DNA of 64,000 bases, taken from NCBI GenBank assembly GCA_028282805.1, contig JANQHD010000004.1:124001-188000 (forward strand), in the 5' to 3' direction. The notes below the pieces were generated by a model. It had not been told where the DNA came from and made no database searches. It saw nothing but the letters and a program-made list of their open reading frames with translations. The translations under genes and the position numbers were made by a program. The stretch is from Phycisphaeraceae bacterium. Its GTDB lineage: Bacteria > Planctomycetota > Phycisphaerae > Phycisphaerales > Zrk34. Shown here piece by piece: positions 43,848-58,889 of this stretch; positions within the stretch are counted from its first letter, which is position 1, and every line of letters starts with the position of its first letter.

Positions 43848-44927
43848 TTAGGCGGGGTTCGGCCGCCGCATCATCAACTCGGACAAAGAGGCCAGGGCAC
43901 CCAGCGTCTGGCCGGTGAAACCCTCTCCAATCGAAGCAAGCCGGGATTGTAGCTGTGGGTAATCGTCTTCGATCCGTTTGATCACGGTACGGACCTCATT
44001 GAGCATGGTCGGCGAGTGGACCTCGACGTGATATTCCTCGAGCCCCAGCGACCGCATCATACCGCCCATCTTTGCGTGCGCCCCCAACGAGACGACCGGC
44101 GTACCGAACCCGATTGGGACGATTTGGCCGTGGCCGCGCACCGAGAGGACATACCGCGCGTCGCGATAGTACTTCATCACGGACTCGCACTGGTCAAACG
44201 CGTAGCTGCCGAAGTCCAACACCTCGGCCCCCACGATCCCGTCGCTGATTTCCTTGGAGATCGCGACGTCATGCAAGACGTGCGGGATAAAGATGACCCT
44301 CTGTGTTTGCGCGATTTCACCCGTGATGACCCGCATGTTCTCGATGAACTTGGCTCGTGCGGTTTCGTCGCCGTAACGCAGGCTCGATTTGTCGTCGGCG
44401 ATCTGCACCACCACAAAGTCGTCCTCGACCACTTCACCCCATTCCCGGCCTAAACCGACATGGAAACCAGGGTCGGGGAGCACCTGCGCATCGATCCCTG
44501 TGGCGTCGAGCAGGCGGCCGTGGCTCCCGTCGTTCCGCACGGAGAAATGTGCAGCGTGCCGGTATGTTTCGTGCAGATGATCGATGCCCCTCTCCGGGAT
44601 GCTACCCTCCGACTCGAAGTAGTTGTAGCCCACCGCGTAGACGATGAACGGGATTTTGATCGTCCGAATGAGCTCCTTCTCGATCAGCCAGAACCAACCC
44701 TGAGGCCAGTGGGCACCGTGAATCACCCCGCCGCCCCCGATGACCAGCATGTCGTAGAGCTTGTTGACGACCTCGTTGATGTAATACTCGTTGAACTGCC
44801 GGCCCTGGAGGTTGGTCTGGCCGATCTGTTCGATATCGAACGCGTGGCGCAAGACGTTTTTCACGCCGAATCCCAGGGCATAATCCCCCACGTTGTAATT
44901 CAGACAATAGGTATGCAATACCTTCAT
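43848..44927 (-). CDS. Polysaccharide pyruvyl transferase family protein
   Basis: This 359-residue protein of the CsaB/WcaK family transfers pyruvate from phosphoenolpyruvate to a sugar to form a ketal. It shows the N-terminal NYNVGDYALG, the GGGGVIHG loop after a hydrophobic strand, VLPDPGF, and near the end VLSVRGHGQIVPIGFGTPVVSLG, the motif RxHGxI that all members keep. Pyruvyl groups add a negative charge to the finished polymer, which often matters for surface attachment. AAGGAG lies upstream of the ATG. It follows the ATP-grasp/HAD gene by 29 bases. Confidence 0.85.
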   Translation of the reverse strand: MKVLHTYCLNYNVGDYALGFGVKNVLRHAFDIEQIGQTNLQGRQFNEYYINEVVNKLYDMLVIGGGGVIHGAHWPQGWFWLIEKELIRTIKIPFIVYAVGYNYFESEGSIPERGIDHLHETYRHAAHFSVRNDGSHGRLLDATGIDAQVLPDPGFHVGLGREWGEVVEDDFVVVQIADDKSSLRYGDETARAKFIENMRVITGEIAQTQRVIFIPHVLHDVAISKEISDGIVGAEVLDFGSYAFDQCESVMKYYRDARYVLSVRGHGQIVPIGFGTPVVSLGAHAKMGGMMRSLGLEEYHVEVHSPTMLNEVRTVIKRIEDDYPQLQSRLASIGEGFTGQTLGALASLSELMMRRPNPA

Positions 44928-44956: not shown

Positions 44957-46270
44957 TTAGCCTCTACCCACCGGTTTCTGTCGTATGCAGGTGATAGAGG
45001 CGGCGGCGTCCGGCGAGTATACAGGGATGCCGTGTGCCGTTCGCACGCTCTTCCGCTCCGCGTGGGAATCATCCACGAAGATCGATGCGGTGGTCTCGAT
45101 GTAGTTGGCCTTATTGGCGCCTTCCTGGATGTGCACCACCTCGTCGAACAGCCCGCTCAGACGGGTCTTCCCGAGACTCTCATGGATATCATCGGCGTGG
45201 CGCGTTAACAGCACCAGACGGATCCCGTGATTCGTGCAGTCGTACAGGAACCTGACGAGTTGGCTGTTGACCTTGTCGCGGATGACCAGACAGTCGTCGT
45301 AATCGCAATAGACGGTGTCGAACTCGTGATCGATCCGAAAACGGTGGTCGAAAGAACGGTCGATCTCGTTCTCGACGTCATTCTCAAGTACCTCGACATC
45401 AAGCCCCATGCGGTCATAGACGCTCAGCAACGACAGGTTCACACCGCTGTTCCGCGCAAGGGCGCTGGACCCGGCAATACGGGCGGCGACCTCCATCAGC
45501 ACGAACTCCCCGGCGTCGTTCTCCTTGACCTGGAAGAACCACGCGCCGCGGAAATCCATCGCGGAATTGATGGTCTGGGCCCATTCCCCGAACCGTTCGT
45601 CGCGCACCGAAACCGAGTTGACACTGATGCCAGTCCGGACACGACGACGTTGACGCCCGCGCGAGAACAGCAGGTTGCCGTGGCGGTCGGTGAAGCAGTC
45701 GATCGTATATTCCACGCCCGGAAGGTATTCCAGCACCATCAGATTCTCGTGGCGAGACGTGTGGTACTCGACTGTCTCGAGGTCCTTCGCGAGCACCGTG
45801 CCCTGCGAGCCCTGCCCGATCTCCGGTTTGAGAAACACCGGCAGCATATCTTCCGTGACCTCGTCGGCACAAAAAACCTTCGGCGTCATCACGATGCCGG
45901 ACAGGTGCTCGTACGTCACCCGCTTGGAGTAGCAGATGCGGTTGGTCCCTGCGCTGCTTGTAACGACCTCCGCTCCGATCCGGTCGCGGTGCTCGGAGAA
46001 GAACATCGCCACCCTGTCCAAGGCTGGGAAGACAAGATCAATCGCGTGCTTGCGGAGGATGTCGTTGAACCGGTCCAGGAAATCGTCCGCCGTGATATAC
46101 GGCATCAGGTCGGGGATGTAGTTCTCGTAGAGAAACTTCCCGGGGTTGTTTTCGACGCTGGTTGCGCCAAATACATTGATGTATTTTTCGCAAGCCAGCG
46201 ACCGGTGGATCTCGAGCGCGCATTCCGAACCGCAGGGAAAGATCAGCGCGTTTTTTACTTCGATGCCCAT
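44957..46270 (-). CDS. ATP-grasp ligase fused to HAD domain
   Basis: Residues 1-300 of this 437-residue protein form an ATP-grasp ligase: PVFLKPEIGQGSQGTVL (ATP-binding strand and loop), MVLEYLPGVEYTIDCF, and FFQVKENDAGEFVLMEVAARIAGSS with the Glu and Asn/Ala metal region. Residues about 315-437 are a HAD-type hydrolase: YCDYDDCLV nucleophile motif, LLTRHADD (motif II Thr), then FVDDSHAER as motif IV. ATP-grasp enzymes join an acid to an amine through an acyl phosphate; here an amide bond to an amino sugar is a reasonable guess. GGAGGAGG precedes the ATG. It is 14 bases downstream of the aminotransferase gene. Confidence 0.8.
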   Translation of the reverse strand: MGIEVKNALIFPCGSECALEIHRSLACEKYINVFGATSVENNPGKFLYENYIPDLMPYITADDFLDRFNDILRKHAIDLVFPALDRVAMFFSEHRDRIGAEVVTSSAGTNRICYSKRVTYEHLSGIVMTPKVFCADEVTEDMLPVFLKPEIGQGSQGTVLAKDLETVEYHTSRHENLMVLEYLPGVEYTIDCFTDRHGNLLFSRGRQRRRVRTGISVNSVSVRDERFGEWAQTINSAMDFRGAWFFQVKENDAGEFVLMEVAARIAGSSALARNSGVNLSLLSVYDRMGLDVEVLENDVENEIDRSFDHRFRIDHEFDTVYCDYDDCLVIRDKVNSQLVRFLYDCTNHGIRLVLLTRHADDIHESLGKTRLSGLFDEVVHIQEGANKANYIETTASIFVDDSHAERKSVRTAHGIPVYSPDAAASITCIRQKPVGRG

Positions 46271-46284
46271 CGCACCCTCCTCCG

Positions 46285-47409
46285 TCAGGCGTCCCGGCCC
46301 GACTCGACAATCATCCCGCAGATCCGCTCGACGTCGTCGCGCGACAGCGTGTGGTACAGCGGCAGGCAGAACACGCGCTCGGCGATCCGCCGCGCGTGCG
46401 TCAGGCCGTCACCCCTCGGGTCGCCGGCGAGCGGCGCGGTGTCGCTGAGCAGCGGGTAGAAGTACCGCCGCCCGTAGACGTTGTGCCCCTGCAACCGCCG
46501 TTCGAGCTCGCCGGTGTCGCAGCCGAACCGCTCCGGGTCGATCAGCACGGGCATGTAGCTGTAGTTGTATTCCTCGGGGTCGAACTTCTGGAACGTGATG
46601 TAGTCGAGGCCGCCGAGCAAACACTGGTACAGCTCGTACTTCTCGCGCCGCGTCCGCCGGACCTCGTCGAGGTGCTTGAGGTTCGCCAGGCCCAAACCCG
46701 CCGCGACCTCGGTCATCTTCGCGTTCATGCCGTCGTCGACGATCTCCTTGCGCTCGTCGAACCCGAAGAACCGCATCCGCCGGAGGCGCGCCGCCAGCGC
46801 GGCGTCTTCCGTGAAACACGCCCCGCCCTCGCACGTGTTGAACAGCTTCGTCGCGTGGAAGCTGGTGCACGCCACGTCGCCGTACGACATGATCGACTTG
46901 CCGTGGGCCTTGACGCACATCGCGTGCGCCGCGTCGTAGATGACCTTCAGGCCGTGGCGGTCGGCGATCTGCGCGATGCGCCGCACGTCGCACGGCGCGC
47001 TGAACACGTGCACCGGCAGGATCGCGACCGTCTTGTCGGTGATCGCTCGCTCGACGCGGTCGGGGTCGATGTTCCAGGTGTCGGCATCGACGTCGACGAA
47101 CACCGGGGTGCACCGCTCCCACTTGATGATGTTGGCCGTGGCGATGAACGAGAACGGCGTGGTGATGATCTCGCCCTCGAGGTCCAACGCGCGGATCGCC
47201 AATTGCATCGCGCACGTGCCGTTGGCCACGCAGACCGTGTCGCCCACGCCCTCGTAGGCCGAGACCTCTTTTTCGAGTTGCTGCATCAGCGGACCGTTGT
47301 GGGTCATGATCCCGCTGTCCCAGACCCGCTGGAGGTATTCGTTGAACTCCGCCAGCGGGGCCAGCGAGGGCTGGGTGACGTAGATCGGCTTGTCCGAAGT
47401 CTGTTTCAT
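46285..47409 (-). CDS. DegT/DnrJ/EryC1 aminotransferase, sugar 4-amination likely
   Basis: This is a 374-residue PLP aminotransferase of the sugar nucleotide family. The substrate loop is VANGTCAMQLAIRAL, the ring-nitrogen Asp is in YDAAHAM, and the Schiff-base Lys is in SFHATKLFNTCEGG. The FHATKLFN form differs from the FYPTKNLG form of the enzyme at 5290, so they are different branches. Lying just after the 2,3-dehydratase and the Gfo/Idh gene, it most likely aminates C4 of a dTDP-4-keto-2,6-dideoxyhexose. The chosen ATG lies 8 bases after the preceding stop; the longer frame would overlap that gene. Confidence 0.87.
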   Translation of the reverse strand: MKQTSDKPIYVTQPSLAPLAEFNEYLQRVWDSGIMTHNGPLMQQLEKEVSAYEGVGDTVCVANGTCAMQLAIRALDLEGEIITTPFSFIATANIIKWERCTPVFVDVDADTWNIDPDRVERAITDKTVAILPVHVFSAPCDVRRIAQIADRHGLKVIYDAAHAMCVKAHGKSIMSYGDVACTSFHATKLFNTCEGGACFTEDAALAARLRRMRFFGFDERKEIVDDGMNAKMTEVAAGLGLANLKHLDEVRRTRREKYELYQCLLGGLDYITFQKFDPEEYNYSYMPVLIDPERFGCDTGELERRLQGHNVYGRRYFYPLLSDTAPLAGDPRGDGLTHARRIAERVFCLPLYHTLSRDDVERICGMIVESGRDA

Positions 47410-47417
47410 CGTGTGGT

Positions 47418-48383
47418 TCACGCGCGAGCCTTCGCACGCATCTCCTCCAGCAGTCGGGCCTGGTCCAGTAGTACGTCCCAATGCTCGGCGAAGTTCCCCG
47501 CTTCGACCTCCGAGGCGAACCACCGCCACATGTTGTCGAAATGGTTGTCCGCCGGGAGCGTGAGTTCCTCGGATTCGCCCTGTTTCTCGACGAGCAGCAC
47601 CGGCTCAAACCCCGGCGGCGCGGTGAACACGCGGTTGGTCGACAGCTTGCCGACCGTGCCCAACAGCTCGACCCGGCACTGGTAGAAGTAGTCGAAGCCG
47701 AACGCGACCTGCGCGACCTGGCCGGCGTCGTTGCGGAACATCGCTTCGCCGTACTTGTCCACGCCGGTCTCTTCGTCGTCTTGGAGCGAGGCGGCGAGCA
47801 CCTCCAGGCCGGTGCCGAGCAACAGCTGCGAGACCTTGGCCATGTACGCCCCGGCGTCGAGCAGCGCGCCGCCGCCGAGGCCCTTGTTCCAGCGGAAGTT
47901 GTCCTTCGGCAACGGCGGGAAGCCGAACGTGCTGCGCACCAAATGCACGTCGCCGAGCTCGCCGCCGGCCATGTACCGCTTGATCTCGGCCCACTGGCCG
48001 TGGGTCTGAAACTGGAAGTTCTCGAACACCAGCAGGTTGTTCTCGCGCGCCACGTCGAGCATGCGCTCGGCCGACGCGTAACCCTCGGCGAACGATTTTT
48101 CCACCAGCAGGTGCTTGCCCGCCCGAAGCGCCTCGGTGCACCACTGCTCGTGCAGGCCGGTCGGCAGCGGCATGTAGACCGCGTCGACGTCGTCGCGCGA
48201 CAGCAGCGCGTCGTAACCCGCCACGCCCTCGCACCCGAACTCGCCGGCGACCTCGTCGGCCTTGTCTTGCGACCGGCTGGCCACGGCGACCAGTTCCGCG
48301 CCGTCGCAGTCGCGCAGCGCGGGGATCATGGCGCGCCGCGCAAAGCTCGAACAACCCATCACACCGACTCTCAGACCTGCCAT
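47418..48383 (-). CDS. Gfo/Idh/MocA oxidoreductase, probable sugar 3-ketoreductase
   Basis: This 321-residue NAD(P)-dependent enzyme has VGVMGCSSFARRAMIPAL as cofactor fold, PLPTGLHEQW, the Glu-Lys motif LLVEKSFAEG (Lys replaces proton donor in most members; Ser follows instead of Pro), and GALLDAGAYMAK with the Asp and Tyr. Enzymes of this shape reduce C3 of the unstable 3,4-diketo sugar made by NDP-hexose 2,3-dehydratases (as in deoxysugar pathways of actinomycete antibiotics). The gene lies 9 bases after the 2,3-dehydratase gene, which strongly supports this pairing. The function is inferred from family and context. Confidence 0.83.
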   Translation of the reverse strand: MAGLRVGVMGCSSFARRAMIPALRDCDGAELVAVASRSQDKADEVAGEFGCEGVAGYDALLSRDDVDAVYMPLPTGLHEQWCTEALRAGKHLLVEKSFAEGYASAERMLDVARENNLLVFENFQFQTHGQWAEIKRYMAGGELGDVHLVRSTFGFPPLPKDNFRWNKGLGGGALLDAGAYMAKVSQLLLGTGLEVLAASLQDDEETGVDKYGEAMFRNDAGQVAQVAFGFDYFYQCRVELLGTVGKLSTNRVFTAPPGFEPVLLVEKQGESEELTLPADNHFDNMWRWFASEVEAGNFAEHWDVLLDQARLLEEMRAKARA

Positions 48384-48392
48384 ATCGCCCGC

Positions 48393-49787
48393 CTACACAA
48401 AACTCATGCTCGACAGCAGGCAACGCGCCTGCACGTTGACGAAGTTGTTGTACTTGATGAACTCTTTGAGCTGGTTCGCCGTCATCCAGACGTAGTTGTC
48501 GGGCACGTCGGCGGGGAAGTCGTCGCCGGCGTACACGATCAGGTTGCGGTTCTCCTCGCGGTAGAACCGGCCGCCCTCTTCCGATTGCAGCGCGTCGAAC
48601 CGCACCCGCTCGGCCGGCGCGTTCAGCACGTAGTTGGTGAACGGCGGGCGGTTGGCCTCGGGCACCGTCTCGTAGCTGCCGGTCAGGCACTGCACCGTCG
48701 GCGCCATCTCCGCCACGTCGAAGTTGCCCGGCTCGACCTTGGCCTGCACCAGAAAGTGCAGCACGCCGTCGAACGCCTTGACCACGAACGCGATCAGCCC
48801 CTGCTGGTGCGCCTTGACCAACGGCTGGGTCCAGCTGAACACCTCCCGGCTGTCGGCCTCGACCGCGCACGCGATGACGCTGAAAAACCGGCCGCTGTCG
48901 TGGCGGACCTCCGTCTCCGTCCGCCGCCAGCCGGCCACGTCCTTGAGCGGCATGCGTTCGACGTCCAGGTCGAAACGGAACTTCTGCTCGGTGAACCAGC
49001 TGATGATCTGCTCGTTGGTGTGCTGCGTGGCGCTGCGCGGGTCGAGCGAGGTTAGCAGCGCCCGGCCGAACGCGCTGAGCTCGACGCCCGGGTCGGCCTC
49101 GTTGGCGAACGGGATGCACGACAGCACCGTCCGCGCGTCCATGTTGATCAGGTTGTCATGCCGCATGGTCGCCAGCACCTGGCCCAGCGTCATCCAGCGG
49201 TAGTCGTCGTACACCGGCACTTCGTCGCCGACCTCGATGATGATGTTGCGGTTGCGCTTGCGCAGGAAGCGCGCCCCTTGCTCCGACTGGAGCGAGTCGA
49301 CCAGCACCCGCGCCCGCGAGCGGTCGGTGAAATACTCGAGGTACGGCGGGCTCTTGCCCCGGTGCACGCGCGTGAAGTTGCTGCGCGTGGCCTGCAAGGT
49401 CGGCGCGAGCTGGATCATGTTGATGTTGCCCGGCTCCATCTTCGCCTGCACGAGCAGGTGCAGCACGCCGTCGATCTTGCGCGTGATGAAGCCGAGGAAC
49501 CCGATCTCGGGCTGGTTGATGATCGGCTGCTGCCAGTGCGGCACGCCGCCCCAGTTGGTCTTCACGTCGATGCCCTCGATGGTGAAGAACCGCCCGCTGG
49601 CGTGGCCGAGGTTGCCGGTTTCGGGGTCGAAGCCCCACTGGTCGAGGCGCGCAAAGGGGATCTGCTCGAGCCGGAAGCGGTGCGCTTCCTGGCGCTCGGC
49701 GAACCAGTCGAGGATGCCCAGCGAGGGGCGCAGCGCATCTTCCTGGGCGAGCGCCGAACGCAGGAATGTGTTTGGGGCGTTTTCCAT
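48393..49787 (-). CDS. NDP-hexose 2,3-dehydratase
   Basis: This 464-residue protein is made of two similar halves (about 20-230 and 245-460), as in TylX3/EvaA-type enzymes, which remove the C2 hydroxyl from dTDP-4-keto-6-deoxyglucose. Each half repeats the same signature: GRFFTIEGIDV and GRFFSVIACAV, VLHLLVQAKMEPGN and VLHFLVQAKVEPGN, LAPTLQAT and MAPTVQCL. The substrate would come from rmlA and rmlB just upstream. This family is usual in antibiotic deoxysugar pathways and less so in surface polysaccharide loci. It lies 33 bases after rmlA. Confidence 0.92.
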   Translation of the reverse strand: MENAPNTFLRSALAQEDALRPSLGILDWFAERQEAHRFRLEQIPFARLDQWGFDPETGNLGHASGRFFTIEGIDVKTNWGGVPHWQQPIINQPEIGFLGFITRKIDGVLHLLVQAKMEPGNINMIQLAPTLQATRSNFTRVHRGKSPPYLEYFTDRSRARVLVDSLQSEQGARFLRKRNRNIIIEVGDEVPVYDDYRWMTLGQVLATMRHDNLINMDARTVLSCIPFANEADPGVELSAFGRALLTSLDPRSATQHTNEQIISWFTEQKFRFDLDVERMPLKDVAGWRRTETEVRHDSGRFFSVIACAVEADSREVFSWTQPLVKAHQQGLIAFVVKAFDGVLHFLVQAKVEPGNFDVAEMAPTVQCLTGSYETVPEANRPPFTNYVLNAPAERVRFDALQSEEGGRFYREENRNLIVYAGDDFPADVPDNYVWMTANQLKEFIKYNNFVNVQARCLLSSMSFV

Positions 49788-49820
49788 CGGCGTGTGTGCG
49801 GCGTCGGCCGGGCGGCCGGT

Positions 49821-50699
49821 TCAGCCGAGCCTCTCCTCGCAACGCTCGCGGACGTACTGGAAGTACTCGCCCTTCATCTCGGCGGTCTGCTCGAGCATCC
49901 GCTTGGCGGAAACGAACCCCATCAGCACGGCGATCTCCTCGAGGCAGGCGACCTTCAGGCCCTGGCGTTTTTCGATGGCCTGAATGAAGCTGCTGGCCTC
50001 GGTGAGGCTGTCGGGGGTGCCGGTGTCGAGCCAGGCGGTGCCCCGGCCGAAGCGGTTGACGCTGAGCTGGCCCATGTCGAGGTACATCTGGTTGAGCGTG
50101 GTGATCTCCAGTTCGCCGCGCGCGGAGGGCTTGACCTGTTTGGCCAGCTCGCAGACCTGCTTGTCGTAGAAGTACAGGCCGGTGACGGCGTACTTGCTCT
50201 TGGGGTGTTCGGGTTTTTCTTCGAGGCTGATGACCTTGCGTTGGTCGTCGAACTCGACGACGCCGTAGCGCTGCGGGTCGGACACGAGGTAGCCGAACAC
50301 GACCGCCCCGCCGCTGGTGGCGGAGATGAAGGCTTTTTGGAGGAGTTCGCGGAGTCCGGTGCCGTAGAAGACGTTGTCGCCGAGCACGAGGCACGCGGGG
50401 CCGCCGGCGAGGAACGCTTCGCCGATGATGAACGCCTGCGCCAGCCCCTCGGGCTTCGGCTGCTCGGCGTACTCGAGGGCGATGCCCCACTGGCTGCCAT
50501 CGCCCAGCAGCTTGCGGTAGAGCGGCAGGTCGGTCGGCGTGGAGATGATCAGCACCTCGCGGATGCCGGCGAGCATGAGCATGCTCAGCGGGTAATACAC
50601 CATCGGCTTGTCGTAGATGGGCAACAGCTGCTTGGTGACCGGCACCGTCATCGGGTGCAGCCGTGTGCCACTGCCGCCGGCCAGGACGATCCCTTTCAT
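49821..50699 (-). CDS. rmlA: Glucose-1-phosphate thymidylyltransferase
   Basis: This 292-residue enzyme makes dTDP-glucose from dTTP and glucose 1-phosphate. It shows [13 protein letters not shown] (pyrophosphorylase loop), the Lys in [22 protein letters not shown] with the catalytic Asp, VVEFDDQRK and [20 protein letters not shown]. The length and motifs fit the short RmlA form. It lies 6 bases after rmlB. No rmlC or rmlD is present, so dTDP-rhamnose is not the obvious product. Confidence 0.95.
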
Positions 50700-50705
50700 C
50701 GCGCG

Positions 50706-51782
50706 CTACTCCTTGTGGGCGGCGCCCACGCCCAGCCGTTCGCCGGCGTACTTGTTCTCACGGATCGGACGCCACCACCACTCGTTGTCCAGATACCACC
50801 GCACCGTCTTACGCAGGCCGGTCTCGAACGTCTCGCTCGGCTCCCAGCCCAGCTCGTCCTTGACCTTCGTCGCGTCGATGGCGTAACGCAGGTCGTGGCC
50901 CGGGCGGTCCGGCACGAACTCGATCAAATCCTTGTAAGGCCCCTCGCCGTGCGGCCGCAGCTCGTCGAGCGCAGCGCAGATCGCCTCGACGACCTGGAGG
51001 TTGGTGCGTTCGTTGTTGCCGCCGATGTTGTAGGTCTCGCCGACCCGGCCGGCCTCGACCACCCGACACAACGCGCGGGCGTGGTCGTCGACGTACAACC
51101 AGTCGCGCACGTTCTCGCCCTTGCCGTAGATCGGCAGCGGCTTGCGGTGCAACGCGTTGAGGATCACCAGCGGGACCAGCTTCTCGGGGAAGTGGTAAGG
51201 CCCGTAGTTGTTCGAGCAGTTGGTGATGACCACCGGCAACCCGTACGTGTGAAACCACGCCGACACCAGGTGGTCGCTCGACGCCTTCGACGCCGAGTAC
51301 GGGCTGCGTGGGTCGTAGGGCGTGGTCTCGACGAAAAGCCCCTCGTCGCCGAGCGAGCCGTACACCTCGTCGGTGGAGATGTGGTGAAAGCGGAAACGGT
51401 CGCGCTGCGCGGCGTCGAGCCCGTCGAGGTAACCGCGCGCCGCTTCGAGCAGGCTGAACGTGCCCATGATGTTCGTTTCGATGAACACCGCCGACCCGTC
51501 GATGCTGCGGTCGACGTGCGACTCGGCGGCCAGGTGCATCACCGCGTCGGGCTGAAAGTCGTCGAACGCCTGTCGCATCGCCGCGCGGTCGCAGATGTCG
51601 GCCCGCACGAAGCGGTAGCGCGGCGAGTCGGCGACGACCTTCAACGACTCGAGGTTGCCCGCGTAGGTCAGCTTGTCGATGCACAACACCTCGGCCTCGG
51701 TCGCGCCGATCAGGTGCCGCACGACCGCGGAGCCGATAAACCCGGCGCCCCCGGTCACGATGATGCGTTGGTGAGGCGTCAT
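50706..51782 (-). CDS. rmlB: dTDP-glucose 4,6-dehydratase
   Basis: This 358-residue SDR enzyme converts dTDP-glucose to dTDP-4-keto-6-deoxyglucose. It has [29 protein letters not shown], the [13 protein letters not shown] motif with Thr-Asp-Glu, and [11 protein letters not shown] with catalytic Tyr and Lys, then [17 protein letters not shown], all RmlB hallmarks. Three start codons are in frame within 18 bases; the last ATG has AAGG at the best distance. It heads the deoxysugar module and is 65 bases after wecB. Confidence 0.95.
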
Positions 51783-51847
51783 GTCCATGCCTTGCAAAAC
51801 GTTGCCCGTTCAAACGCGTGGGTGATACAACGCCCACGCCCGGCGGC

Positions 51848-52933
51848 TCAGCCCGCCAGCGTCTCCGCGATCCGCACGGCGGCTCGGCCGTCCCATAGGT
51901 CCGGCACCGTCGGGCTGAAACCGTTGTCGCCCACGACCCGCTCGTACGCCGCGACGATCTTCTGCGGGTCCGTGCCCACCAGCTGGTTGGCGCCCACCTC
52001 GATCGTGATCGGCCGCTCGGTGTTCTCGCGCATCGTGATGCACGGCACCTTGAGGATCGTCGTCTCCTCCTGGATGCCGCCCGAGTCGGTCAACACCACC
52101 TTCGCCCCGCTCATCAGCTTGAGGAAGTCGAGGTAACCCACGGGGTCCAACAGGCGCAGGTTGACCATCGCGTCGACGCGGTCGGCCAGGCCGAGCTTGC
52201 CGAGGTTGTTGCGCGTGCGCGGGTGGATGGGGAACACGACCACCATGTCGTTTTGCACACGCTCGATCGCGTCGAGGATGCGCCCGAACACCGCCGGGTC
52301 GTCCACGTTGCTCGGCCGGTGCATCGTCAACGCCGCGTAGTCGACGCCGTTGAGGTCCAGCTCGTCGAGCACCTTGGACTCGTCGGCCTTGGCCTTGTTC
52401 TTCAAAAGCGTGTCGATCATCACGTTGCCCACGAGGAAGATCTTGTCCTCGCTGACACCTTCGTTCTTCAGGTTCTCCACGCCCGACGGCTCGGTGATGA
52501 ACAGGTAGTCGCTGATCGCGTCGGTGAGCACGCGGTTGACTTCCTCGGGCATGTTGCGGTCGAAGCTGCGCAGCCCGGCCTCGACGTGGATCAGCTTCAC
52601 GCCCAGCTTCACCGCCACCAGGCCGCAGGCGATCGTGCTGTTCACGTCGCCCACCACCAGCACGGCGTCGGGCTTGTGCTCGAGCACGACCGGCTCGAAC
52701 TTCTTCATGATCTCGGCCGTCATCACCGCGTGCGACGCCGAGCCGACCTCGAGGTTGATGTCCGGCTCGGGGATGCCGAGCTGCCGGAAGAACAGGTCGC
52801 TCATCTTCTCGTCGTAGTGCTGGCCGGTGTGCACGAGCATCGGCTCGATGCCCGGGTGCGCGGCGAACGCGTCCATCAGCGGCGCGATCTTCATGAAGTT
52901 GGGCCGAGCGCCGGCCACGTTGATGATTTTCAT
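51848..52933 (-). CDS. wecB: UDP-N-acetylglucosamine 2-epimerase, non-hydrolysing
   Basis: This is a 361-residue enzyme interconverting UDP-GlcNAc and UDP-ManNAc. The start VAGARPNFMKIAPL, then HTGQHYDEKMSD, VVGDVNSTIACGL, HVEAGLRSFDRNMPEEVNR, TMHRPSNVD and LTDSGGIQEET are the WecB set, including the active-site His and Glu. With the UDP-HexNAc 6-dehydrogenase at 27316 it could provide UDP-ManNAcA. It has a 214-base leader region after the sugar transferase gene, which is AT-rich around 53000 and may hold an internal promoter (TAATAA on minus), though no -35 box is clear. Confidence 0.93.
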   Translation of the reverse strand: MKIINVAGARPNFMKIAPLMDAFAAHPGIEPMLVHTGQHYDEKMSDLFFRQLGIPEPDINLEVGSASHAVMTAEIMKKFEPVVLEHKPDAVLVVGDVNSTIACGLVAVKLGVKLIHVEAGLRSFDRNMPEEVNRVLTDAISDYLFITEPSGVENLKNEGVSEDKIFLVGNVMIDTLLKNKAKADESKVLDELDLNGVDYAALTMHRPSNVDDPAVFGRILDAIERVQNDMVVVFPIHPRTRNNLGKLGLADRVDAMVNLRLLDPVGYLDFLKLMSGAKVVLTDSGGIQEETTILKVPCITMRENTERPITIEVGANQLVGTDPQKIVAAYERVVGDNGFSPTVPDLWDGRAAVRIAETLAG

Positions 52934-53147: not shown

Positions 53148-53810
53148 TTAACCCAGCGACTCGGGCCGCGGCGGCATCCCCGCCAGCCACTTCTCGTGCA
53201 GCCGGCCGCCCGGCTTGAGCACCGCCAACGCCGTCAGCAACACGATCTTCATGTCCAGCCACAAGCTCTGGTGCTCCTGGTACCACAGCTCCAGCTTCCC
53301 CTTGTACGGCGCGATGTCCTCGCGGTACACGTCCGCCGGAGGCTTGTTCGCCCGCTCGGTGATCGACTCCTCGTCGCGGAAGACGATCGAACCGATCCCC
53401 GTCAGCCCCGGCTTCATGTTCACGATCTTCTCCTGGACCTCCGGCGGGTAGTAGTCGAAGCTCTTGGGCATCAGCGGACGCCAACCCACCACGCTCATGT
53501 TCCCGATCAAGATGTTGATGATCTGCGGCACCTCGTTCAGCTTCGCTTTGCGCAACACCCGTCCCACCGGCAGCACCCGCGGGTCGTTGCGCAGCGTGAT
53601 GTCCTTGTTGCCGACGAACTCGCTGTCCGACTGCATCGTCACGAACTTGAACACCTTGAACTTCTTGCCGCCCTGTCCCACGCGCTCCTGGAGGAACCAC
53701 ACCTTGTGCTCGCCCGTGCACTTGAGCACCAACATGATGACCAGCAAAGGCACGGCCAACAGCGTCAGCCAGAACAACGCGAACAATATGTCGAACAGTC
53801 GCTTGATCAT
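53148..53810 (-). CDS. Initiating sugar-1-phosphate transferase (PglC/WcaJ-type)
   Basis: This 220-residue monotopic enzyme of the bacterial sugar transferase family places a sugar 1-phosphate on undecaprenyl phosphate to begin repeat-unit synthesis. It has one N-terminal membrane-entering helix, the VWFLQERVGQGGKKFKVFKF core, KLNEVPQIINILIGNMSVVG and PGLTGIGSI. The catalytic Asp-Glu pair of the PglC type (Asp93-Glu94 in Campylobacter) reads Asn92-Glu93 here. There is no large N-terminal four-helix part, so it is the short PglC/WecP-like form. The gene lies 6 bases after the dehydratase, which points to a 4-amino-4,6-dideoxy-HexNAc type substrate. Confidence 0.87.
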   Translation of the reverse strand: MIKRLFDILFALFWLTLLAVPLLVIMLVLKCTGEHKVWFLQERVGQGGKKFKVFKFVTMQSDSEFVGNKDITLRNDPRVLPVGRVLRKAKLNEVPQIINILIGNMSVVGWRPLMPKSFDYYPPEVQEKIVNMKPGLTGIGSIVFRDEESITERANKPPADVYREDIAPYKGKLELWYQEHQSLWLDMKIVLLTALAVLKPGGRLHEKWLAGMPPRPESLG

Positions 53811-53816
53811 ACGTCT

Positions 53817-55016
53817 CTACATCTTCTGGTCGAGGTACTTGCCCGTCTCGAGGTGGTCGAAGTTGCTCAGCGTCCGGTTGAACAGCTCGACGATCGGCGC
53901 CTTATCCCACGTGCCCGCCGCCTTCAGCTCGGCGATCGTCCGCTCGAAGTGCGCCAGGGCGTCGGCGTCCCAGCCCAGGTCGCAGGTGACGATGCCCAGG
54001 TCTTTGAACCGCTCCCAGTCCACCGACTCGGCGTCGGTGTAAAACTCCTCGAAGTCCTTCTCGCCGGTCGTGTCGCTTTCGAAGAAGAAGCACGGCCACT
54101 TCTTCTGCGCCGCCAGCTCGTCGACGCGCGCCCGCGCCTCGTCTTCCGAATCGCACGCCACCGCCTCGTAGCCGACCGACTCGAGGTACCGCACCGCGAT
54201 CTCGCTGAACTTCGTCAGGTGCAGCTTGTCCGACAGGCGGGGGAAGAATATCTCGCGGTTTTCGCCGAAGCAGATCGACATCAGGCACAAAATCGCGCCC
54301 TCGGTGTCGGTCACGAAGTACCGCCGCACGTCGTTGGGGGCGGCCAGCGGCTGGCGCTTGCGGATGCGCTGCGTCCACGCGAACGGCAGCGACCCGTCGC
54401 TGAACGCCACGTTCGCGAACCGCGCGCTGCTCACCGTCACGTCCTCCGCCCGCCGCATGAGGAACAGCTCCATGATGCGCTTCGACGCGCCCATCATGTT
54501 CACGGGGTTCGACGCCTTGTCGGTCGACACGCAGAAGTACTTCTTCGCCCCGGTCTCCGCCGCGTACCGCGCGGTGCGGTCGGTGTTGAAGATGTTCACG
54601 TCGATCATGCGCATCAGCGTGTAGGGGTCGGACTCGCTGCGCACGTGCTTGAGAGCGGAGAAGTTGAGCACGTAGTCGTACGGCCCGCACGCGGCGGTCA
54701 TCGCGTCGAACGTCGGGTCGCCGCAGTCCAGCGCGAACGTGCGGAAGTCGCCGTCGATGTAACCGGCCGAGCTGCGGATGTCGCGCACCACCTCGGCGAG
54801 GTTGTTCTCGGAGATGTCGACCACGTGCAGCACGGCGGGGTTGCGGATGAAGACCTGCTTGACCACGGCGCTGCCGATCGAACCGGCGCCGCCGATGACG
54901 AGGAACCGGCCGCCGCGCACCGCCTCGTCGAGCCGATCGCCGTACGTAGCGAGGTCCTGTTCGAACAGCCCCTGCTCGCGCCCGATGATCGACAGTAGTC
55001 CTTGGTGGTGACTCAT
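53817..55016 (-). CDS. UDP-GlcNAc 4,6-dehydratase-like SDR (PglF/CapD type)
   Basis: This 399-residue soluble enzyme of the polysaccharide biosynthesis SDR group is related to PglF, CapD and LegB. It has VIGGAGSIGSAVVKQ as cofactor fold, NFSALKHVRSESDPYTLMRMIDVN, STDKASNPVNMMGASKR, where Met replaces the usual Tyr while Lys remains (as in the PglF/WbpM branch), and SVRFANV-like ARFANVAFSDGS. It would form the UDP-4-keto-6-deoxy sugar that the LegC-type aminotransferase uses. The ATG at the MSHHQG start is chosen because upstream sequence is Arg-rich and not family-like. It lies 240 bases after the HAD gene; that gap holds no clear feature. Confidence 0.87.
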   Translation of the reverse strand: MSHHQGLLSIIGREQGLFEQDLATYGDRLDEAVRGGRFLVIGGAGSIGSAVVKQVFIRNPAVLHVVDISENNLAEVVRDIRSSAGYIDGDFRTFALDCGDPTFDAMTAACGPYDYVLNFSALKHVRSESDPYTLMRMIDVNIFNTDRTARYAAETGAKKYFCVSTDKASNPVNMMGASKRIMELFLMRRAEDVTVSSARFANVAFSDGSLPFAWTQRIRKRQPLAAPNDVRRYFVTDTEGAILCLMSICFGENREIFFPRLSDKLHLTKFSEIAVRYLESVGYEAVACDSEDEARARVDELAAQKKWPCFFFESDTTGEKDFEEFYTDAESVDWERFKDLGIVTCDLGWDADALAHFERTIAELKAAGTWDKAPIVELFNRTLSNFDHLETGKYLDQKM

Positions 55017-55256
55017 GGTGTTGCGATATCCGTTTGTCGGCCAAATAACGTGCCTGCGTCCACCCCCGCCGGCGGGCAGTATAGTCTCTGATAGGTCCGG
55101 TGGTGACGATCCACGCCGCCCGCGGGAACCCGCGGCTTGCACCTTCCTCAACGCTGCGTACAGAGCAAATATCGTGAATCGGCCCACCCGAGTTCAGTCG
55201 GCCCACACGATCCCCTCCACGAAAGTACGCCATGCGCCGCAAAAGGTTCGCCGCCG

Positions 55257-55934
55257 TTACAGGCCGATCGCCGCGTCGACCTGTTCGCGGTCGGCCAGGG
55301 TCTCGACCACGCAGGTCGCGCCGGCCGCTTCGAGCTGCTCGGTCCGATAGTTCCCCGTGGCCACGGCCAGCGACCGGCAGCCGTGGGCCTGGGCGCACTG
55401 CACGTCGCGCGGCGTGTCGCCGACAATCAACACCTCGTCGGGCGTCACGCCGTCGCCGCACCGCGTCATCGCCACCGCGACCAGCGCCGCGCGGTCGTCG
55501 CCGTCTTCGGCGCACACGACGCAGTCAAACAGGCCCGGGTCGAACCCCGCCGCGGTCAACTTGATCTCCGCCGCCCGCCGGTAGTTGCCCGTGAGCACGC
55601 CGATCGCCAAACCGTCGCGCGCGTGCAGGTCGGCCAGCAGTTCCCGCACGCCCGGCATCACCGTCACGTCATCACGCCGTGCTTCCAGTTCGTCGGCCAG
55701 CGCGGCGAAGTACGCCCGCTGGTAGGCGTCGTGGTGGTCGTGCGGGTGGTCGATGCCGTTGTGGGCGCACAGGTCCGCGAAGATCTGCGGGTCGAGCGTG
55801 CCGACGGTGATCGGCCCCCACTCGAAGTCGTCGCCGAACACATTTTTGCAGGCGCGCAAGATGCACCGGCTGCCCGCGCCCTTGGTGATCATCAGGGTGC
55901 CGTCGATGTCGAACAGAACCAGCTTGGTGGCCAT
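55257..55934 (-). CDS. HAD-superfamily phosphatase
   Basis: This 225-residue hydrolase has a phosphoglycolate phosphatase-like layout: LVLFDIDGTLM nucleophile motif, a helical cap (about 18-85), VLTGNYRRAAEIKL as motif II region with Thr and Lys, and EVLIVGDTPRDVQCA as motif IV. It removes phosphate from a small molecule, possibly a sugar or acyl phosphate. It is 12 bases after the PglD/ATP-grasp fusion gene and clearly in its operon. The same two activities, ATP-grasp and HAD, are fused in one chain at 44957. There is no signal peptide. Confidence 0.85.
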   Translation of the reverse strand: MATKLVLFDIDGTLMITKGAGSRCILRACKNVFGDDFEWGPITVGTLDPQIFADLCAHNGIDHPHDHHDAYQRAYFAALADELEARRDDVTVMPGVRELLADLHARDGLAIGVLTGNYRRAAEIKLTAAGFDPGLFDCVVCAEDGDDRAALVAVAMTRCGDGVTPDEVLIVGDTPRDVQCAQAHGCRSLAVATGNYRTEQLEAAGATCVVETLADREQVDAAIGL

Positions 55935-55946
55935 GGGCGTGCGTGC

Positions 55947-57692
55947 TCAGCGGGTGATCGGGCTGCGGCGGGTGCGGCCGACGGGCATGGACAGGCCCGT
56001 CTCGCTGCGCGGCAGGAACAGTGCATCGTCGTAGCGCAGCATGACCAGGCCGTTAGTCCACTCGTTCTCCACGGCGGTCAGCGGCAGGCCCATCGCCTCT
56101 TCGATCATCCACTGCGACATGGGGGCGCCGGCCTCGTGGCTGAGCGGGTAGCCGCCGCCGAAGCGGGGGTTGATCTCGATGACGTTCAGGTCGTCGGTCG
56201 CTTCGTCGTAGAAGATCTGGATGTTCATCACGCCCGCGCCGCCGGGCAGCGCCTCGGCCACCGCGCACGCGGTGTCCTGGAGCTTCTGGTTGCGGACGGT
56301 CATGCCCTTGTTGACCTCGCCGCCGCGCGTCTCGATGCGCAGGCGCGGCACGCTGCACCGGCACTTGCCGTCGCGGTCGATGTACACGTCGCAGGTGTAT
56401 TCCCGGCCGCGGGCGAGGCTCTGCACGATGAACTCGCGGTTGGCCGTGGCCATGACCAGCTCGTCCTCGTTGCGCACGACGACCGCGCCGATCGAGCTGC
56501 TGCCGCGGCGCGGCTTGACGAACAGCGGGTAACGCCAGCTGTCCGCGTCGGCCAGCGCCCGCTTCGGCGACGTCTGACGCACGGTGGGGAAGCCGCTTTC
56601 GACCAGCCACTCGTGCGTGGCGATCTTGTCGTTGCCGATGGCGATCGTCTCGGCGGCGGAGACCATGACCCGCGTGCCGACCTGTTCGAACCGCGCGTGG
56701 TGCTCGGCGTAAAACGGCAGGTCCGGGTCGATCGTCGGCACGATGATCTTGATGCGGTACTCCTGGCAGATGCGCAACAGCTCGTCGAGGCAGTGCGGGT
56801 CGGAGTAGTTGGGCACGATGCGGGCGACGTCGGCGTCGTGGAACGCCGAGCTGTGCCGCGAGATGTCGGTGGCGATCACCTGGCCGGCGAGGCCCAGATC
56901 GCCGAGGCTGCGCCGCAGCAGGCGCAGCAGGGCCACGCGTCGGCCCGCCGCGGAGAGCATGATGTTGCACTCGCGGTCGGACCTGCCGGGGGCGGGGGCG
57001 ATGCGCGGCGGCGCGCCGGGCTTTTGGGCCAGGGGCTTGGCGGGCACGCCCACGGCCGTCACGCCGTCGGGCAGGTCGCGGACGACCGAGGCGCCGGCGC
57101 CGACGACGACCTCGTCGCCGATGCGGATCGCGTGGATGACGGTCGCGCCGGTGCCGATGTGCGTCGAGTGGCCGACGTGGACGTTGCCGCTGAGGGTCAC
57201 GCCGGGCGCGACGTGGGTGTGCGGGCCGATGACGCAGTCGTGGTCGACCGAGGCGTTGGTGTTGATCAGCGCGTTGCGGCCGATCGCGGCGTTGGGCTGG
57301 ATCACGCAGCCGGCCATCACCTGCGCGCCGGGCTCGATGCGCGCCGTCGGCGCGATGACCGCGCTGGGGTGCACGACCTGGCTGAAGGTGTAGCCCTTGG
57401 CGGTGAAGCGTTCGAAGACCTCGCGCCGGGCGGTCGGCACCTGGACGGAGCCGACGGCGTTGATGAGCAACACCTTGTCGGGTTCGTGTTCGAGCACGAG
57501 CTCGTCGCCGCCGGCGACCTGGATGCCGTGGATCGTTTTGCCGTGCAGGTCGGTGTTGAAGTCGGTGATGTACAGGGCCTCGCGGTCGAGCAGTCGGAGC
57601 ACGTCGATGAGCACGCGCGCGTGCTCGCCGGCGCCGATGAGGATGATCGGCTTGTCGCTGCTGATCGGGTAGATGTCGGCGTTCTGTTTCAC
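55947..57692 (-). CDS. PglD/NeuD-like acetyltransferase fused to ATP-grasp enzyme
   Basis: Residues 1-225 of this 581-residue fusion match sugar N-acetyltransferases of the PglD/NeuD/LegH family: PIILIGAGEHARVLIDVL (UDP-sugar fold), then hexapeptide repeats with NTNASVDHDCVIGPHTHVAPG, the His base, and GAGASVVRDLPDGVTAVGVPAK. Residues about 240-560 are an ATP-grasp domain of the carbamoyl-phosphate synthase-like type: LFVKPRRGSSSIGAVVV, FIVQSLARGREYTCDVYID and NVIEINPRFGGGYPLSHEAGA with metal ligands Glu and Asn. The start is GTG, with AAGGACC upstream. It is 18 bases after the LegC-type gene. The fusion suggests that one amine is acetylated and another group ligated on the same sugar. Confidence 0.87.
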   Translation of the reverse strand: MKQNADIYPISSDKPIILIGAGEHARVLIDVLRLLDREALYITDFNTDLHGKTIHGIQVAGGDELVLEHEPDKVLLINAVGSVQVPTARREVFERFTAKGYTFSQVVHPSAVIAPTARIEPGAQVMAGCVIQPNAAIGRNALINTNASVDHDCVIGPHTHVAPGVTLSGNVHVGHSTHIGTGATVIHAIRIGDEVVVGAGASVVRDLPDGVTAVGVPAKPLAQKPGAPPRIAPAPGRSDRECNIMLSAAGRRVALLRLLRRSLGDLGLAGQVIATDISRHSSAFHDADVARIVPNYSDPHCLDELLRICQEYRIKIIVPTIDPDLPFYAEHHARFEQVGTRVMVSAAETIAIGNDKIATHEWLVESGFPTVRQTSPKRALADADSWRYPLFVKPRRGSSSIGAVVVRNEDELVMATANREFIVQSLARGREYTCDVYIDRDGKCRCSVPRLRIETRGGEVNKGMTVRNQKLQDTACAVAEALPGGAGVMNIQIFYDEATDDLNVIEINPRFGGGYPLSHEAGAPMSQWMIEEAMGLPLTAVENEWTNGLVMLRYDDALFLPRSETGLSMPVGRTRRSPITR

Positions 57693-57710
57693 CCGGGCCG
57701 GTCCTTTTGT

Positions 57711-58889
57711 TTATGCCAGGTACGCACTGCTGGGCACGTTGATCACGCGTGCCGCGAGGTCCATGGTGACCGACAGGTCGTCGGCGGGGCAACCGCGGTA
57801 CATCTCCAACGTGTGCATCGGCCGCCAGATGGGGCGGGCCTGAAGTTTTGCCTCGTTGAGGGCCTCGATCACCGGGTTGCGCAGCTCGGCGCAGCCGGGG
57901 GCGAGCACGATCGCGTTCAGCCAGCAGTTGCACTCGGCGTGGTCGGGGCCGGTGAACAGGTCGATGTCGTCGAGGTCGGCGAACACCTCGGCGTAGCGCG
58001 CGTGCAGGCGGCGCTTGGCGGCGACTGTTTCGTCGAGCTGTTTCATCTCGGCGCAGCCGATCGCGGCGTTGACGTTGGGCATGCGGTAGTTGAAGCCGGC
58101 CCGGTCGTGCACGTACTCGTAGGGGTGCGGGGCCTTGGCGGTGGTGGTCAGGTGGCGGGCCTCGTCGGCCAGTTCGGGGTCGTTGGTGAGGATCATGCCC
58201 CCGCCGCCGGTGGTCAGTATCTTGTTGCCGTTGTAGCTGAGGATGCCGATGCGACCGAACGTGCCGGTATGCCGGCCGCGGTAGGTCGAGCCGAGCGATT
58301 CGGCGGCGTCTTCGACGATGGGGACGCCGTGCTTCTCGGCGACGGCGAGCAGGCCGACGATGTCGACGGGGTGGCCGAAGGTGTGCATGGGCACGATCGC
58401 GGCGATGCGTCGGTTGGTCTGCTTGTTGTACAGGCCATCGCTGCGCCGCTCGCCGATGGTTTCGAGGCGGGCGTCGAGCTTGGCGGGGTCGAGGCCCATG
58501 GTGGCGGGTTCGACGTCGGCGAAGTGCGGTATGGCGTGCTGGTAGGTCGCGGCGTTGGCGGTGGCCACGAAGGTCAGGGCGGGCATGACGACCTCGTCGT
58601 CGCGCCCGACGCCGGCGAGGCGCAGGGCCGCGTGCAGCGCGGCGGTGCCGTTGACCACGGCGATCGCGTGCGCCGCGCCGGTGTACGCGGCGGTGAGGTT
58701 TTCGAACTCGGTCACGAAAGCGCCGCCGCTGGACACCCACCCGGTGGTGATGCAGTCGCGCAGGTTGCCCATCGACTCGTCGGTGAACTTCGGCGCGTGC
58801 AGGGCGACCGGCCGCTCGGCGTTGCCCACCACCTCGCCCACCGCGGTGACGATCTTCTCGGTCAGGTCGGCGCGGGTCTGTTGTCCCAT
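57711..58889 (-). CDS. LegC-family sugar nucleotide aminotransferase
   Basis: This 392-residue PLP enzyme of the DegT group, LegC/PglE branch, aminates C4 of a UDP- or GDP-linked 4-keto-6-deoxy-N-acetylhexosamine. The TTGWVSSGGAFVTEFE start, VVNGTAALHAALRLAGV, VEDAAESLGSTYRG and SYNGNKILTTGGGG with Schiff-base Lys223 are typical. It is the first gene of the minus-strand cluster. Its start lies 166 bases from the divergent DUF2723 gene, in a region with a -10-like TATACT at 58939-58944 on the minus strand. Legionaminate synthesis is not supported because no NeuB-like synthase is present; the context suggests a bacillosamine-like product. Confidence 0.88.
   Translation of the reverse strand: MGQQTRADLTEKIVTAVGEVVGNAERPVALHAPKFTDESMGNLRDCITTGWVSSGGAFVTEFENLTAAYTGAAHAIAVVNGTAALHAALRLAGVGRDDEVVMPALTFVATANAATYQHAIPHFADVEPATMGLDPAKLDARLETIGERRSDGLYNKQTNRRIAAIVPMHTFGHPVDIVGLLAVAEKHGVPIVEDAAESLGSTYRGRHTGTFGRIGILSYNGNKILTTGGGGMILTNDPELADEARHLTTTAKAPHPYEYVHDRAGFNYRMPNVNAAIGCAEMKQLDETVAAKRRLHARYAEVFADLDDIDLFTGPDHAECNCWLNAIVLAPGCAELRNPVIEALNEAKLQARPIWRPMHTLEMYRGCPADDLSVTMDLAARVINVPSSAYLA

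Follow-up and report, generated by a model that had tools for sequence, protein, structure and literature searches.

An acetyltransferase-ATP-grasp fusion in a planctomycete polysaccharide gene cluster, and its candidate role in N-acylation of the polymer-starting diamino sugar

The window studied here, that is, the whole stretch of 64,000 nt in whose positions all coordinates are given, carries a planctomycete surface-polysaccharide gene cluster in which a NeuD-type acetyltransferase and an ATP-grasp ligase form a single protein, encoded directly before a HAD phosphatase. Considering the gene content, the fusion itself, its intact motifs, the recurrent pairing of ATP-grasp with HAD genes, and the exchange of this pair with NeuD or formyltransferase genes among relatives, we hold with slightly better than even confidence that the six genes serve to synthesise and prime a 2,4-diamino-2,4,6-trideoxy sugar bearing an N-acyl group: the ATP-grasp domain would couple a phosphorylated acid to the 4-amine group of the UDP-2-acetamido-2,4,6-trideoxy sugar, and the HAD enzyme would then strip the phosphate. 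All genes of the module lie on the minus strand, and the aminotransferase, acetyltransferase, dehydratase and PglC-type genes, which an earlier note on this DNA had described as one run on that strand, were all recovered in place:

57711..58889, minus strand, LegC/PglE-type sugar aminotransferase (TIGR04181, 494.4 bits against a cut-off of 420; PF01041)
57018..57692, minus strand, fusion residues 1-225, the NeuD/PglD acetyltransferase half (TIGR03570 over residues 16-219, 224.5 bits against a cut-off of 160.8)
55947..56978, minus strand, fusion residues 239-581 and stop codon, the ATP-grasp ligase half (PF21360 and PF02655, both over cut-off)
55257..55934, minus strand, HAD phosphatase, type HAD1 (PF13419, 70.8 bits)
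53817..55016, minus strand, SDR assigned to the soluble UDP-GlcNAc 4,6-dehydratase type (PDB 3pvz, 543 bits)
53148..53810, minus strand, short PglC-type initiating phosphosugar transferase (PF02397 over residues 3-199 of 220, 168.5 bits)
51848..52933, minus strand, WecB-type non-hydrolysing UDP-GlcNAc 2-epimerase, a downstream neighbour with a putative role in the module (TIGR00236, 344 bits against 210)

The fusion gene (55947-57692, minus strand) is one unbroken frame of 581 aa, in agreement with the earlier description of an acetyltransferase running into a full ATP-grasp domain, and its residues 243-560 correspond to PylC-like_N plus ATP-grasp_3, and also to PRK12767 (PRK12767.1-4, 296 bits). 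Its stop codon is separated by 12 bases from the ATG of the HAD gene, the spacing previously noted, and 240 bases separate the HAD gene from the dehydratase. Relatives were found by an alignment-based scan of genome contigs, a single-protein scan having given no match. The fusion is present in three genomes, namely that of the window, G003 (73% identity) and G057 (55%), with identical partner genes each time, and its recurrence in two further genomes rules out both a chance frame and an assembly error. Among 201 genomes of the order and 392 of the phylum, no fusion was found in an unrelated context; the earlier note had taken wide occurrence without sugar amination genes as an argument against a module, and the fusion was found only alongside such genes.

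The best PDB matches of the NeuD half are a perosamine N-acetyltransferase and the acetyltransferase domain of Neisseria PglB, and the DHD motif, which holds the probable catalytic His, is retained in fused and unfused copies alike. In the ATP-grasp domain, K155, E268, N270 and R272 (domain numbering) are conserved; its closest solved relative, by sequence as well as by fold, is 2pn1, and a structure model of mean pLDDT 78 displays an ATP-grasp fold nearest to 2pn1 that does not reveal the substrate. We know of no solved relative with a known substrate in this subfamily, 2pn1 being merely annotated. These features bear on a plainer account, in which the product is N,N'-diacetylbacillosamine, acylation is due to NeuD, and the ATP-grasp and HAD genes are decaying or serve an unrelated step. 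The intact NeuD motif and the existence of a chassis with NeuD only (L218) are compatible with this account, which we nevertheless regard as very unlikely, given that the catalytic residues of the ATP-grasp domain are conserved, that its identity to G003 (77%) exceeds that of the NeuD half (69%), and that the close relative L103 retains ATP-grasp and HAD genes with no detectable NeuD.

With regard to the remaining enzymes, the aminotransferase falls in the LegC family, the PseC model reaching just 219 bits. The dehydratase had been taken for a PglF/CapD-type enzyme, an assignment that we revise: the match to 3pvz covers its whole length, PF02719 gives 126 bits, the motif STDKA...MGASKR is present, and the PglF, WbjB and CapE structures score far lower (about 50-70 bits), so that from its sequence it is predicted to be of the soluble UDP-GlcNAc 4,6-dehydratase type and not the membrane type. 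The earlier note would have abandoned the module had this enzyme grouped with those acting on other substrates; its grouping is with a UDP-GlcNAc 4,6-dehydratase, and its orthologues elsewhere (L219, L220, L226) lie beside LegC aminotransferase, NeuB, NeuC, and NeuD or formyltransferase genes, neighbours that tie the dehydratase/aminotransferase pair to the bacillosamine/legionaminic route. In those legionaminic acid clusters the pair is orthologous to that of the window, which in contrast has no adjoining NeuB or NeuC and has PglC and a WecB-type epimerase instead. NeuB is absent from the cluster, NeuB-family genes being confined to other contigs, and the NeuC model gives only 81 bits with the epimerase; synthesis of legionaminic acid by this cluster is thus ruled out. 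Bacillus subtilis EpsC/N/M/L and Campylobacter PglF/E/D/C make and prime UDP-diNAcBac. These modules share with the window, by family, the activities of dehydratase, LegC/PglE aminotransferase, NeuD/PglD acetyltransferase and PglC-type phosphoglycosyl transferase (PGT), whereas the additional ATP-grasp and HAD genes and the soluble type predicted for the dehydratase set the window apart.

The N-acylation step of this chassis looks like a swappable slot, since the chassis occurs with NeuD, with a formyltransferase, or with ATP-grasp and HAD. The order aminotransferase-NeuD-SDR-PglC without ATP-grasp is found in G524 and L218, and L103 carries aminotransferase-ATPgrasp-PglC-HAD-SDR. Both ATP-grasp and NeuD are present in unfused form in G029, G060, G078, L117 and L108, and in fused form in the window, G003 and G057; the 3pvz-type dehydratase was not found in G029, G060 and G078, and the RmlB-like genes of G029, G060 and G004 are well under the LegB cut-off. 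An ATP-grasp neighbour accompanies NeuD genes adjoining PglC or an aminotransferase in 3 of 23 loci, all three of them the fusions, and most ATP-grasp/HAD loci have no NeuD nearby. ATP-grasp and HAD occupy the position held elsewhere by NeuD or formyltransferase; judged by gene content, the window, G003, G057, L103 and distant loci all have an ATP-grasp at the N-acylation step of a diamino sugar pathway primed by a PGT. This position strengthens the earlier proposal of an ATP-dependent amide on the first diamino sugar, while for the chemistry and the identity of that sugar we infer no more than the conditional scheme given below.

The presence of both acylating activities in one protein could also mean that they act in series, the ATP-grasp domain adding an amino acid (e.g., O-phosphoserine, dephosphorylated by HAD) to the 4-amine, after which the amine of that amino acid would be acylated by NeuD or, in other loci, by a formyltransferase. 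We consider this rather unlikely: it accounts for an N-acyl transferase beside ATP-grasp/HAD in the fusion, G029, G060 and L117, as well as for the order formyltransferase-ATPgrasp-HAD in Palleronia and Ensifer, but NeuD is missing near most ATP-grasp/HAD loci, L103 included, and to our knowledge the known NeuD enzymes act on the sugar amine.

The HAD protein displays DxDGT, TGN and GDTPRD motifs, with 2hcf as best solved relative; the earlier note had assigned this gene no role. Of the 93 non-edge loci of ATP-grasp relatives, which come from many phyla, 69 have a HAD gene at most 2.5 kb away, and just one HAD match of this kind occurs elsewhere in the ATP-grasp flanks. Two very different HAD types stand beside ATP-grasp genes, and as their mutual identity is 14%, phosphatase activity rather than a single gene lineage seems to be conserved. 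The PRxRxExRxGEVxKG motif of the ATP-grasps, mostly identical in both sets, fails to separate HAD-linked from HAD-less loci. Named examples of the pairing include Segatella copri, Priestia filamentosa (aminotransferase - sugar transferase - ATP-grasp - HAD, tightly packed) and a gammaproteobacterium (PglC-ATPgrasp-HAD-aminotransferase). Metabacillus niabensis is a further carrier, as is a Paenibacillus with the order PglC-ATPgrasp-HAD-aminotransferase, and numerous loci have the ATP-grasp gene immediately after PglC with a LegC-like aminotransferase close by.

A comparable relay is known from Campylobacter jejuni, where Cj1438C ligates a phosphorylated partner and Cj1435, a HAD enzyme, then dephosphorylates it (PMC11800397, PMC11800379); both have an ATP-grasp amide ligase and, encoded in the same cluster, a HAD phosphatase, these activities being predicted in the case of the window. 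Cj1438C is a TupA-like ATP-grasp fused to GT2 and joins a phosphorylated amine to the glucuronate carboxylate on a growing chain, whereas the window protein has PylC-like_N and ATP-grasp_3, no TupA or GT2 domain (Pfam), and a proposed polarity that is the reverse. This being the sole characterised capsule ATP-grasp/HAD relay that we found, the window pair might likewise modify the carboxylate of another sugar of the polymer, with the NeuD fusion merely keeping two decorating activities together. That the locus makes several unusual sugars, and that some relatives have no aminotransferase in the stretch read, would agree with such a uronamide; however, it appears unlikely in view of the frequent position of ATP-grasp directly after PglC and near a LegC-like aminotransferase, the different ATP-grasp type of the Campylobacter ligase, and the lack of any recognisable uronate dehydrogenase in the scanned set of window genes.

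The nearest precedent for the product is Neisseria PglB2, an 'ATP grasp/phosphoglycosyl-transferase' that makes the glyceramido sugar GATDH (PMC11130364, PMC6959607), its product being UndPP-GATDH, a 4-glyceramido-2-acetamido trideoxyhexose; for some Neisseria, a HAD hydrolase is also listed among the genes of the pgl core locus (PMC6959607). Both pathways have an ATP-grasp in the N-acylation slot and bacillosamine-type priming with dehydratase, aminotransferase and PGT, a likeness of gene content. In PglB2 the ATP-grasp is fused to the PGT and replaces the acetyltransferase, whereas in the window it is fused to NeuD, thus joining the acetyltransferase, and PglC is a separate gene. Genomes sampled from the class to which an Endozoicomonas genome belongs yielded no PGT/ATP-grasp fusion. 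The NeuD fusion is new but of a partly known kind, an ATP-grasp fusion in glyceramido sugar synthesis being known already from PglB2.

We infer the acid, the acceptor, the bond, the phosphate relay, the sequence of reactions and what the acetyltransferase half does as follows. Going by family membership and gene neighbours, UDP-GlcNAc would be converted by the dehydratase and the LegC-type aminotransferase to UDP-2-acetamido-4-amino-2,4,6-trideoxyglucose. The ATP-grasp domain would activate a small carboxylic acid as an acyl phosphate and couple it to the 4-amine. Most likely this acid bears a phosphate, 3-phosphoglycerate being our best guess, and removal of the phosphate by the HAD enzyme after ligation would leave an amide such as glyceramide. 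The fused NeuD could acetylate the same amine from acetyl-CoA, and the fusion may be either a two-way N-acylating enzyme or one whose NeuD part chiefly holds the UDP-sugar. PglC would finally transfer the completed phosphosugar to undecaprenyl phosphate, starting the polymer. Several observations speak against this favoured explanation: the fusion keeps a NeuD that simple replacement would make unnecessary, and unfused NeuD plus ATP-grasp recurs (L117, L108); in 24 of the 93 ATP-grasp loci a nearby HAD gene is missing, and certain ATP-grasp/HAD pairs, as in Labrenzia, have no aminotransferase within the stretch read; and the Campylobacter ligase differs in type and polarity.

The unfused ligase-phosphatase pairs of many bacteria, which take the place of acetylation there, suggest a widespread and mostly unassigned way of decorating amino sugars. 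More tentatively, and at somewhat less than even confidence, ATP-grasp and HAD may together form a cassette of general use that spans phyla, attaches phosphorylated acids to the amine of UDP-4-amino sugars in an ATP-dependent manner and can be exchanged for acetyl or formyl transfer; its fusion to an acetyltransferase in this lineage would give one enzyme able to furnish the polymer-starting sugar with one or the other of two acyl groups, or with both in succession. If true, this would provide a function for two genes that commonly occur as a pair in the polysaccharide clusters of many phyla and carry the database labels 'ATP-grasp domain-containing protein' and 'HAD family hydrolase', would make N-acyl groups predictable from sequence, and would offer a route to the glyceramide of the Neisseria pilin sugar that includes the phosphatase step.

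The earlier note had placed an aminotransferase, an acetyltransferase, a 4,6-dehydratase and a PglC-type initiating transferase in a single minus-strand run, and all four were located at 53148-58889 of the window, with a HAD phosphatase among them, in this transcription order:

57711-58889, minus strand, LegC-family aminotransferase
55947-57692, minus strand, 581-residue NeuD + ATP-grasp protein
55257-55934, minus strand, HAD phosphatase
53817-55016, minus strand, SDR dehydratase (full-length relative, PDB 3pvz)
53148-53810, minus strand, PglC-type transferase

As claimed, a complete NeuD/PglD acetyltransferase (residues 16-219; TIGR03570, 224.5 bits against a cut-off of 160.8) runs into a complete PRK12767-group ATP-grasp protein (residues 243-560; PylC-like_N, ATP-grasp_3), and the HAD gene starts 12 bases past the stop of this fusion, the spacing reported before. 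The proposed PglF/CapD-type 4,6-dehydratase held in its predicted activity but not in its type: the enzyme matches PDB 3pvz, labelled UDP-N-acetylglucosamine 4,6-dehydratase, over its full length (543 bits), whereas PglF, WbjB and CapE structures score near 50-70 bits, ruling out a membrane PglF or CapD identity.

Downstream, the module is followed by a WecB-type epimerase, then by RmlB, RmlA, an NDP-hexose 2,3-dehydratase and an oxidoreductase, and farther on by a second DegT aminotransferase, an ATPgrasp_Ter protein, a pyruvyl transferase, a flippase, a Wzy-type protein and glycosyltransferases; with the module, these constitute a whole polysaccharide locus. RmlA, RmlB, the 2,3-dehydratase and the Gfo/Idh oxidoreductase (47418-51797, minus) are likely a dTDP-2,6-dideoxysugar set. 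The ATPgrasp_Ter gene, encoding a second ATP-grasp protein (64.8 bits; 44957-46270, minus), is flanked by the DegT aminotransferase (46285-47529) and the polysaccharide pyruvyl transferase (43848-44927). A single 723-aa frame at 35594-37765 (minus) encodes a zinc alcohol dehydrogenase domain fused with a Gfo/Idh/MocA domain. Between PglC and WecB, the congeneric genome G003 carries a TviC-like epimerase (L100 8038-8961, plus; 219 bits, below cut-off), with none at that place in the window.

The NeuD/ATP-grasp fusion is real and rare. A search for the same domain order recovered an uninterrupted frame in the window, in G003 (73%) and in G057, from another family of the order (55%), and no further fusions in 201 genomes from the order or 392 from the phylum. 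All three lie next to genes for the aminotransferase, HAD, dehydratase and PglC, and in the genomes covered the fusion occurred only together with sugar amination genes; in three other genomes (G029, G060 and G078), NeuD and ATP-grasp are separate genes within one region. In a tree of 97 ATP-grasp sequences, the three fusions group with the planctomycete loci L103 and L104 (support 100/100), which lack an upstream NeuD, so either a fused ancestor shed its NeuD part or fusion happened twice. Both halves look active, since fused and unfused copies retain the NeuD DHD motif, with its likely catalytic His, and the ATP-grasp Lys, Glu, Asn and Arg. Decay of the ATP-grasp half is disfavoured because it is well conserved (77% to G003, versus 69% for the NeuD half).

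The putative acylation genes vary around the aminotransferase, dehydratase and PglC. G524 (L218) has aminotransferase-NeuD-dehydratase-PglC without ATP-grasp; L103 has aminotransferase-ATP-grasp-PglC-HAD-dehydratase with no detectable NeuD; G029 and G060 carry ATP-grasp-HAD-aminotransferase, NeuD and PglC, all unfused, with no 3pvz-type dehydratase in the stretch read; and the window, G003 and G057 possess NeuD and ATP-grasp in fused form. Elsewhere in the phylum, dehydratase orthologues usually adjoin a LegC-like aminotransferase. After this pair come a formyltransferase with NeuB (518 bits) and NeuC (451 bits) at L219, NeuD with a NeuB-like synthase at L220, and a fused cytidylyltransferase/NeuB with a NeuC-like epimerase at L226. 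Such neighbours connect the pair with the bacillosamine and legionaminic routes through their 4-amino sugar, rather than with enzymes of other substrates, and show that the step filled in the window by NeuD and ATP-grasp is elsewhere one of acetyl or formyl transfer.

A domain alignment search yielded 80 further loci, among the matches listed, from genomes with titles; as loci were selected by similarity to the query, the following fractions are not population frequencies. Of the 97 ATP-grasp sequences compared, a HAD of the window's type lies within 2.5 kb in 7/97 and one of another type in 62/97, with 24/97 lacking a HAD within that distance and 4/97 at a contig end; a single HAD match elsewhere in the flanks marks the pairing as specific. 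The two types share 14% identity, each barely recognised by the other's profile, so the conserved element seems, on this comparison, to be phosphatase activity rather than one gene. Within 7 kb, ATP-grasp at the loci compared is also commonly accompanied by PglC-like genes (56 frames) and aminotransferases (43 loci); of 23 loci where NeuD lies beside PglC or an aminotransferase, only 3 have ATP-grasp next to it, and these are the fusions. Annotated records agree in Priestia filamentosa (aminotransferase-sugar transferase-ATP-grasp-HAD, tightly spaced) and Segatella copri (another ATP-grasp/HAD example), and one gammaproteobacterium has PglC-ATP-grasp-HAD-aminotransferase. Six planctomycete loci (L150, L156, L168, L170, L177, L182) carry, directly after ATP-grasp and in place of the HAD gene, a conserved, probably membrane-bound protein of ~390 aa. 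On the IncR plasmid of Escherichia coli MINF_8D (L188), an O-antigen-like cluster piece with RmlA, an aminotransferase, a GNAT and a PLP enzyme includes an ATP-grasp gene of the window's family, with no HAD gene in the stretch read.

Judging by gene order, formyltransferase is a third N-acyl partner of the pair, as formyltransferase-ATP-grasp-HAD occurs in the Alphaproteobacteria Palleronia and Ensifer (L183 4982-7577, L184 4903-7528). Such coexistence of ATP-grasp with NeuD or formyltransferase would be accounted for if ATP-grasp attached an amino acid whose amine is then acylated by either enzyme, which leaves L103, with no detectable NeuD, unexplained.

ATP-grasp ligases form an acyl phosphate and then hand the acyl group to an amine. 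A phosphatase would be needed if one ligation partner were carried as a phosphate ester, and the most likely reading, drawn from combined precedents, is that ATP-grasp would ligate a phosphorylated acid, 3-phosphoglycerate as a best guess, to the 4-amine of the UDP-sugar, after which HAD would strip the phosphate and PglC would transfer the finished sugar. Both the components and the principle are known from other systems. Bacillus subtilis EpsC/N/M/L (dehydratase, aminotransferase, acetyltransferase and phosphoglycosyl transferase) jointly make and prime diNAcBac (PMC10653937). The Neisseria variant PglB2, an "ATP grasp/phosphoglycosyl-transferase" accompanied by an ORF8, yields the 4-glyceramido sugar GATDH in place of diNAcBac (PMC11130364, PMC6959607), and some Neisseria have a HAD hydrolase as well as a formyl transferase listed at their pgl core locus (PMC6959607). 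Just such a ligase-then-HAD relay, with one partner carried as a phosphate ester, operates in Campylobacter jejuni: glucuronate is coupled by Cj1438C to (S)-serinol phosphate or ethanolamine phosphate, and Cj1435, a HAD enzyme, then takes off the phosphate (PMC11800397, PMC11800379). That case is paralleled by a uronamide reading, in which ATP-grasp and HAD act on a sugar carboxylate, but this reading does not explain why the genes so often accompany PglC and LegC-like enzymes. In the open papers searched, which represent a portion of the literature, the fusion appears undescribed, as do the employment of two dissimilar HAD types and the wide occurrence of the pair. Returning to ligation at the 4-amine, with the NeuD half intact, acetyl and the other acyl group may be alternatives on one amine or may be added in series.
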